From: a virus
DNA: 24,269 bases
IMG/VR virus record: IMGVR_UViG_3300042562_000364
Location: 1-24,269 of that record
Strand: one strand, 5' to 3'
Positions within the stretch are counted from its first letter, which is position 1. Every line of letters starts with the position of its first letter. Both the position numbers and the translations under genes were made by a program. Shown in pieces: positions 7,367-22,244 of the stretch. The notes below the pieces were generated by a model. That model made no database searches. It had not been told where the DNA came from and saw only the letters and a program-made list of their open reading frames with translations.

Positions 7367-7780
7367 TTAAAAAGGACTATCCCCGAAGTCATCGAAGCTT
7401 GACGCAGGCTTAGTTACTGTTGTCTTAGGTTGGTTGAATTCCCCTTCAGCAGCTTTCGCTCTAGAGAATGTCTTGTACATTGTACATGAGATTTCTTTAA
7501 TCTCTTTCTTCTCACCATCCTTAGTTGTCCATGCATTTGTACTAATGCTTCCTTCAACATAGATCTTATCACCTTTCTGAATTGATGCAGCACGATCAGC
7601 TAAAGCAGGGATAGCAAAAATACATCTGTGCCATTCTGTTTTCTCTACCCACTCATCATTCTTCTTGTAGCCATCAGACGTAGCTAAAGATAATTGAACT
7701 AATTTTTTTCCGTTTTCGAAGCTTTTAACCTCGATGTTTCCGACATTTCCTAATAATGTCACTTTGTTTACACTACTCAT
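7367..7780 (-). CDS. ssb: Single-stranded DNA-binding protein
   Basis: The protein has 137 residues. The OB fold starts MSSVNKVTLLGNVG and continues with WHRCIFAIPALADRAAS and QKGDKIYVEGSI, the standard bacterial SSB order. A short flexible linker ends in the acidic tip DDFGDSPF, the site by which SSB recruits partner proteins. It coats single strands during phage replication and recombination. The start overlaps the stop of the nuclease gene by 8 nt. The downstream region is the hairpin cluster, so the ssb message would carry it as its 3-prime part. Confidence 0.95.
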   Translation of the reverse strand: MSSVNKVTLLGNVGNIEVKSFENGKKLVQLSLATSDGYKKNDEWVEKTEWHRCIFAIPALADRAASIQKGDKIYVEGSISTNAWTTKDGEKKEIKEISCTMYKTFSRAKAAEGEFNQPKTTVTKPASSFDDFGDSPF

Positions 7781-15620: not shown

Positions 15621-15713
15621 TTAAAATAATTGCTGTACTATAGCTGTTATTACTAATATCAAAGCTCCAACTACTAAGAAGAAGCTTATGAATGTTAAGA
15701 TATCATTCTTCAT
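15621..15713 (-). CDS. 30-residue membrane protein
   Basis: The gene runs from ATG 15713 to TAA 15621-15623. The product is almost wholly one helix: MKNDILTFISFFLVVGALIL then VITAIVQQLF. The start follows repeated AAATAAT units and stops 4 nt before the next ATG. It is typical of the micro membrane proteins of this arm. Confidence 0.55.
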   Translation of the reverse strand: MKNDILTFISFFLVVGALILVITAIVQQLF

Positions 15714-16026
15714 ATTGTTAATTATTTATTATTTATTATTTATAGCTTCGCTTTTATACTGCATATACCACACGCAGCATTGAATCTTAATTAAAAGATA
15801 ATACCCAACCAATGACACTTCCCTCTGCGACCTCTTCTTATTAATTCAATCTTTCGATTTAGGCTATTTGGTTCACTTTGTTCTTTTACCTTTCGGTATG
15901 CAGTACTCGTTGTCAAGCGTACAGACAGAGCGAGATTTTAGTTATCGAACAAGCGTTCATTGTGAGACATTGTTTTTGTTAATGATGTTCAATGGTATAC
16001 AACACCCTTATGTAATAATAGGGCAT
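15714..16026 (-). other. Non-coding stretch with structured-RNA and origin-like features
   Basis: I find no credible gene in these ~310 nt. On the minus strand there are two hairpins with GAAA tetraloops, TACC-GAAA-GGTA (15898-15887) and AATC-GAAA-GATT (15859-15848), and the mini-hairpin AGC-GAA-GCT (15752-15744), whose core GCGAAGC is known to be unusually stable as single-stranded DNA. TACTGCAT (15905-15898) can pair with ATGCAGTA (15764-15757), though a match of that length is expected by chance. It could be a non-coding RNA or part of an origin. Confidence 0.4.
15717..15743. repeat. AT-rich iterations (ATTATTT units)
   Basis: Overlapping ATTATTT units with a 7-nt period, about three and a half copies, lie directly upstream of the 30-residue membrane gene and beside the GCGAAGC mini-hairpin. 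Easily melted DNA of this kind can mark an origin. It could equally be an A-rich translation leader for the 15713 start. Confidence 0.55.
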
Positions 16027-16062
16027 AAAAAAACCCTAATCGCTTTCCACACTCGACTAGGG
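16027..16062 (-). terminator. Intrinsic terminator (9-bp stem, U-run)
   Basis: The minus strand reads CCCTAGTCG, an 11-nt loop, CGATTAGGG, then seven T. All nine pairs form with one G-U. On the plus strand the same pair is A-C, although an A-run before and CTTTTT after might still allow weak two-way action. The minus direction is clearly favoured. Confidence 0.85.
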
Positions 16063-16124
16063 CTTTTTATTATATATCTACCATGATATAAACAAAACTA
16101 TAGATCGAAGTGTGGATTCGATGA
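16027..16124 (-). ncRNA. Candidate ~96-nt small RNA with complementary hairpin loops
   Basis: On the minus strand a TAnnTTTG box predicts a start near 16122. The RNA would begin with hairpin ATCGAA-TCCACAC-TTCGAT (16122-16104), continue through an A/U-rich link holding a four-codon frame (AUG GUA GAU AUA UAA), and end in a strong intrinsic terminator. The 7-nt loop TCCACAC is exactly complementary to GTGTGGA in the terminator loop (16052-16046), so a loop-loop kiss, or dimer, is possible. The downstream side is non-coding, so this looks like a discrete RNA gene rather than an mRNA leader. Target unknown. Confidence 0.6.
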
Positions 16125-16126
16125 TA

Positions 16127-16134
16127 CAAATGTA
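16127..16134 (-). promoter_or_regulatory. -7 element TACATTTG of the small RNA
   Basis: It shares the decamer TACATTTGTA minus its last base context with the promoter at 15090 (TACATTTGTA in both). The -33 area is a T-run rather than TTTG, so strength may depend on an activator. A copy of the three-copy repeat lies 33-58 nt upstream. Confidence 0.5.
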
Positions 16135-22182: not shown

Positions 22183-22244
22183 GGTAGTTAAATAATTAAT
22201 TGTGCTTACTCTATAAGGTTTTCAGCTACCCCTATTTACTTATG
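22183..22244 (-). promoter_or_regulatory. 62-nt leader of the amidoligase gene
   Basis: No gene and no TAnnTTTG box is visible here. The minus strand ends TTTAACTACCATG. The phrase AACTACC just before the start also precedes the genes starting at 11837 and 24045 (there AACTACCACAA). It may be a shared translation leader. Confidence 0.3.

Follow-up and report, generated by a model that had tools for sequence, protein, structure and literature searches.

Two hairpin loops of a predicted small RNA, encoded on the minus strand of the 24,269-nucleotide stretch of viral DNA analysed here (the window), are exact complements of one another, and in relatives of this element they change together. Judging from these comparisons, the loop-loop pairing is very probably real and has almost certainly been selected. 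One loop belongs to a promoter-proximal hairpin (H1) and the other to an intrinsic terminator, and the persistence of their pairing through repeated full changes of sequence is, as evolutionary evidence that two loops of a phage RNA kiss, unusually clean.

The promoter box, the 5' hairpin and the terminator that the initial annotation had placed on the minus strand are all present in the sequence, as is the exact complementarity of the two 7-nt loops (table 1). The box matches TAnnTTTG, the -7 motif of the Bacteroidota primary sigma factor (PMC7366714), and the predicted RNA should thus begin no more than a few bases from H1; the promoter type also points to Bacteroidota as the likely host. 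A TACATTTG-type box was found at the same position (-8) in 13 of the 13 genomes checked, and from 200 nt upstream to the first gene it was the only TAnnTTTG conserved on the sense strand. The terminator reads CCCUAGUCG-AGUGUGGAAAG-CGAUUAGGG-U7, with the hairpin at 16062-16034 and the U7 tract at 16033-16027. Its loop (A-GUGUGGA-AAG, 11 nt) is unusually large, and the element was missed by a generic terminator scan because the loop limit of that scan was 8 nt. The small-RNA gene claimed at the outset stands as a candidate, in that promoter box and Rho-independent terminator, the features of an intrinsically terminated sRNA, were present in all loci checked. We also considered a conserved mini-frame of four codons (AUG GUA GAU AUA) within the element, and rejected it since it was lost in some relatives.

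Table 1. Positions, in the window, of the parts of the element and of the features behind it.
Feature	Positions	Strand	Remarks
Promoter -7 box TACATTTG	16127..16134	-	Fits the Bacteroidota primary sigma consensus TAnnTTTG
5' hairpin H1, stem AUCGAA/UUCGAU, 7-nt loop	16104..16122	-	Stem compensates in relatives
Kissing loop 1, UCCACAC, within H1	16110..16116	-	Covaries with loop 2 at 7 of 7 positions
Middle hairpin H2, UAUAUC-AUGGUA-GAUAUA	16073..16090	-	From the consensus fold
Intrinsic terminator, stem CCCUAGUCG/CGAUUAGGG, 11-nt loop, U7	16027..16062	-	Kept in 15 of 15 loci, stem changes compensating
Kissing loop 2, GUGUGGA, inside the terminator loop	16046..16052	-	Exact complement of loop 1
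Conserved structured noncoding module, type A	15735..16026	-	Directly 3' of the U-tract; no Rfam match
Reading frame, 30 aa, hydrophobic (MKNDILTFISFFLVVGALILVITAIVQQLF)	15621..15713	-	First after the module; also behind module B in L008
Reading frame, 84 aa	15362..15616	-	Without PHROG or Pfam match

Relatives were collected by pattern scans over 2.9 million viral contigs, and at least 14 further loci besides the window were found (L002-L011, L029, L031, L246 and L247), a lower bound given that the broad pattern used (ATTTGN{3,9}TCGAAN7TTCGA) may miss divergent relatives. The sample is small (15 loci, some closely related), and its counts are not independent events. Over these 15 loci the loops comprised at least eight sequence types, and they were perfectly complementary in 14, by 7-8 bp in 13 of them and by 6 bp in the most distant one. 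The types were UCCACAC/GUGUGGA (window, L002, L003 and L004), CUCGUAC/GUACGAG (L005, L006 and L011), CUCCACU/AGUGGAG (L007), UUCGUCC/GGACGAA (L008), CUCCACC/GGUGGAG (L009), CUCACUC/GAGUGAG (L029), CCUCAAC/GUUGAGG (L031), UCCUCAAC/GUUGAGGA (L246) and GUCAAG/CUUGAC (L247), and they are nearly orthogonal. When the 5' and 3' loops were matched within their own loci, the pairing beat all 100,000 random assignments (sum 66 vs. a maximum of 62, p ~1e-5). Two-sided changes occurred at 7 of 7 kissing pairs of the alignment. The covariation score of the whole structure was 0.30, against 0.175 +/- 0.013 when shuffled and at most 0.08 when slid, and thus lay above all 500 shuffles and every slid version; the shuffles ignore kinship, whereas the slid-partner control retains relatedness. 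In a hand-made register, G-U was absent from the intact kissing pairs, yet these RNAs often had it in the terminator stem; the few U-G cells counted in the kissing columns of the alignment come from L010 and from a misaligned row (L246).

The kissing-loop fold suggested by the initial annotation is therefore strongly supported, the loops changing together in 14 of the 15 loci. Its expectation that neither loop would change without the other in homologues failed once, in L010, where one loop had changed alone (CCUCACC vs. GUGUGGA; no run exceeds 3 bp, and shifting the register gives 5 of 6). This sole broken locus may represent an intermediate step of evolution, or two alleles may have been joined into a chimera during assembly, the latter being plausible because the sequence between the loops is conserved, and its mismatch is outweighed by the other 14 loci. 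Apart from the mismatched loops, L010 (951-1040) is nearly identical to L003. The proposed one-bulge extension of the pairing to 10 bp (UCG/CGA) was not conserved in relatives; what is conserved is the 7 loop bases and usually one flanking U-A pair.

The consensus fold consists of three serial hairpins, namely H1, H2 and the terminator. Compensating changes were found in the H1 stem of L009 (GUCUAA/..UAGAC), L246 (a wholly different stem) and L247, and the inner pair of the terminator shows a compensating change from G-C to A-U. H2 was identical in sequence in 11 loci, and its stem was formed by other sequences in L029, L031 and L246. The loops changed fastest: among the 11 closest loci, the difference per site was 0.41-0.49 in the loops, 0.31 in the linkers, 0.11 in the stems and 0.00 in H2. 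The 4-fold sites of neighbouring genes differed by 0.03-0.33 in the pairs tested, below the level of the loops. Genomes G009 and G007, which carry L002 and L005, are ~97% identical nearby (differences of 2.8% upstream, 1.7% downstream and 3.4% at 4-fold sites), and 9 of 16 loop positions differ between them, 4 of 7 in one loop and 5 of 9 in the other. Difference over the whole element was also somewhat raised (8 of 84), and it is therefore likely that another allele was brought in by recombination. These patterns of divergence suggest that the diversity of the loops may reflect selection for specificity.

The contigs with relatives reach 68 kb, and one of them (G003) has a 127-base end repeat. 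An RNA model run on 12 whole records found one true copy of the element per genome; most of the weak extra matches were to the reverse strand of the element, and the handful elsewhere were at chance level. The phages encode a portal and a large terminase (both seen in G001, the latter as a 686-aa protein with a large-terminase match), as well as a helicase of the DnaB type and an annealing protein resembling Erf, and they appear to be virulent. In a search of the 12 records for two families, Phage_integrase (PF00589) and the ParA-type ATPase (PF13614), neither was found. A role in lysogenic immunity is therefore without support. The element matched no known RNA family: scans of the element and of the module behind it against Rfam 15, at gathering and permissive thresholds and in both the window and its relatives, gave no hit, and the best sub-threshold matches were at chance level. 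DNA searches of phage and plasmid collections gave no match to the element, and of 34 matches to the middle-hairpin pattern in a genome collection none had the terminator of the element. The phylum of G013 was represented by 395 genomes, in which the RNA model and the module pattern found nothing in a run made without a positive control, and no description of such a phage RNA was found in the open literature.

In 15 of the 15 loci a conserved noncoding module of ~300 nt adjoins the U-tract and is followed by a gene, which varies from phage to phage. The initial annotation, which had seen no gene downstream, was thus right locally and wrong farther on, where the module is followed by the 30-aa and 84-aa frames. 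Between element and gene, no second TAnnTTTG was conserved on the sense strand. With module and gene adjoining and no other conserved promoter, the element looks like the short terminated head of a leader, and a termination switch, also suggested by the initial annotation, is plausible from this context, in which all loci run into the conserved leader.

We tentatively favour a promoter-proximal kissing-loop RNA with a conditional terminator, whose loops would serve as a type-specific lock, and we place this proposal a little short of an even chance. The ~96-nt RNA would form the beginning of a leader transcript, next to the promoter and closed by the intrinsic terminator, with three hairpins in a row and the loop of H1 paired to the terminator loop over 7 bp. 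Most transcripts would end at the terminator and yield the short RNA, and read-through would carry on into the structured module of ~300 nt and then the early genes, both forms arising from one common promoter. Kissing would set the efficiency of the terminator and the stability of the short RNA. The loop type is proposed to act as a lock, such that only RNAs of phages of the same type would engage when two phages share a cell. It counts against the proposal that internal pairing alone would not explain the diversification of the loops. It is also conceivable, if unlikely, that the element is a self-recognition RNA whose at least eight, nearly orthogonal loop types are subject to diversifying selection and are traded among near relatives, and by which a phage would sense its own dosage and gate read-through into the early leader, avoiding cross-talk with, or control by, co-infecting relatives. 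Should the loop types encode specificity, these apparently virulent phages would have, in RNA, an equivalent of plasmid incompatibility groups.

The proposed mechanism borrows from two known RNAs. The CI RNA of P4 is encoded in a leader, pairs with that leader and causes termination, and IsrK of Gifsy-1 has short and read-through forms made from one promoter (PMC4825925). P4 CI (seqA/CI/seqC) and IsrK resemble the element as judged from its sequence, in that the untranslated leader of a phage encodes a short RNA and itself contains complementary segments, and their link to premature termination or read-through would, by analogy, apply here. In P4, a temperate phage, the CI RNA silences the replication operon and causes premature termination in trans. 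Here, two hairpin loops kiss over 7 bp, and one of them belongs to the terminator; the loops diversify between close relatives; and the marks of a temperate phage (PF00589 or PF13614) were not seen in the 12 records.

The loops of ColE1 RNAI and RNAII are about 7 nt long. There, as here, the sequence of the loop-loop pairing sets partner recognition, but RNAI and RNAII are sense and antisense, so that their complementarity is automatic (PMC9458437), whereas in the element a single RNA carries both loops, each of which has to change on its own. No antisense TAnnTTTG box, the sign of an opposite-strand partner of the ColE1 type, was conserved near the element.

Of the competing explanations the best, though still somewhat unlikely, is that kissing only stabilises a compact, nuclease-resistant sRNA acting in trans, with termination constitutive and the module made by another route. 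The strong terminator, the constant spacing of the hairpins and the 5' hairpin with which the predicted RNA begins would suit such an sRNA, and the co-directional early genes upstream could supply the module by read-through. It accounts less well for the fact that no further sense-strand promoter is conserved ahead of the downstream gene and for a conserved module that always lies directly behind the element; moreover, complements of the loops elsewhere in the phage genomes occurred in about chance numbers, and no target was seen. The GibS-type intergenic sRNAs of Bacteroidota share the TAnnTTTG promoter, serial hairpins and Rho-independent terminator; they differ by an open 5' region, and loop-loop covariation is not described for them in the parts of that report drawn on here (PMC7366714).

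The spacer between H1 and the terminator measured 37-44 nt in all 15 loci, even in L247, whose spacer sequence is unrelated. This constant spacing favours pairing within one molecule over the self-dimerisation that the initial annotation also suggested, and kissing in cis is thus most likely. That the loops instead pair between molecules, forming head-to-tail dimers or rings as the phi29 packaging RNA does, the RNAs of different phages being kept apart by their loop types, is in our estimation quite unlikely. The near orthogonality of the loop types would accord with it, as would the phi29 pRNA itself, which is also encoded by a phage, is similar in size and carries a pair of complementary loops in each molecule (PMC7357161). 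A spacer so constant, however, suggests a geometric need within one molecule, the large terminase and portal are typical of tailed phages, and the fold is without a pRNA-like three-way junction. The pRNA pairs over 4 bp between molecules, has a three-way junction and serves a dedicated packaging ATPase (PMC7357161), in contrast to the 7 bp, the serial hairpins and the terminator hairpin as partner found here, in phages with a terminase. A packaging RNA was rejected because a terminase is present.

A classical attenuator, in which the 5' segment and the 5' half of the terminator form a long antiterminator helix and the loops merely nucleate it, seems to us very doubtful. It draws on the minimum-energy fold of the window (RNAfold), a long helix of the 5' end with the terminator that was likewise predicted for L003, L029 and L246; by this model, which cannot score the kissing interaction itself, a terminator/antiterminator switch without kissing is possible in these four loci. 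Beyond the loops, however, the helix is not conserved: its flanking complementarity is lost in L005, L008 and L009, in which the loop pairing is kept, and the unconstrained best fold comprised H1 and the terminator in 11 of 15 loci, the two being separated by H2 or by some other local structure. Therefore, the conserved interaction is the one between the loops.

It is most improbable that a DNA feature underlies the pattern, either an inverted repeat for a protein or recombinase or a repeat homogenised by template switching. Two inverted repeats of 7-8 bp, ~60 bp apart and changing in concert, would look like one, but they coincide exactly with the two hairpin loops, the compensating stems do not follow the repeat, and promoter and terminator flank it. 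Chance complementarity in the window can be dismissed almost entirely, as only the mismatched L010 speaks for it and it is refuted by the covariation; against it are also the random pairings and 120 first-order Markov copies of the window, whose ~490 terminator-like hairpins included none with an upstream 7-nt-loop hairpin complementary to the terminator loop, against one such arrangement in the real window. This single-sequence estimate carries far less weight than the covariation in the 14 other contigs.

The module behind the element occurs in two types, type A in the window, L002, L005, L006, L007 and L011, and type B in L003, L004, L008-L010, L029, L031, L246 and L247. They look unrelated, and both are highly conserved at the same genomic place. 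The types swap between close relatives; when the window was compared with G001 and G002, the flanks aligned and the module did not. Structure was predicted in both, and in type B 15 pairs had two-sided changes; these interchangeable modules represent a second uncharacterised RNA at the same place. In module B, the direct repeats AACGGAAGTAAGT and AACAAAAGTAAGT flank a long hairpin whose loop is rich in G (GGGGGAGGGGGAG). At ~4730-5120 of L004, an HNH-nuclease-like gene comes after module B, and behind that gene a vestige of the end of module A (AGTATAAAAGCGAAGCTATAAATAA) is left, which looks as though most of module A had been displaced by module B together with the nuclease. A GIY-YIG-like gene lies near L029; this name and the HNH-like one come from reading the sequence.

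Elsewhere in the window, the plus-strand genes of the left 7 kb, with a structural-type match, converge with the minus-strand early genes at ~7367-7413. At 22203-22235 on the minus strand there is a match to the Rfam DUF805b RNA (35.9 bits vs. a threshold of 35.6), just upstream of a 485-aa frame (22182-20725) without PHROG or Pfam match, which is followed by a glutamine-amidotransferase-like frame.
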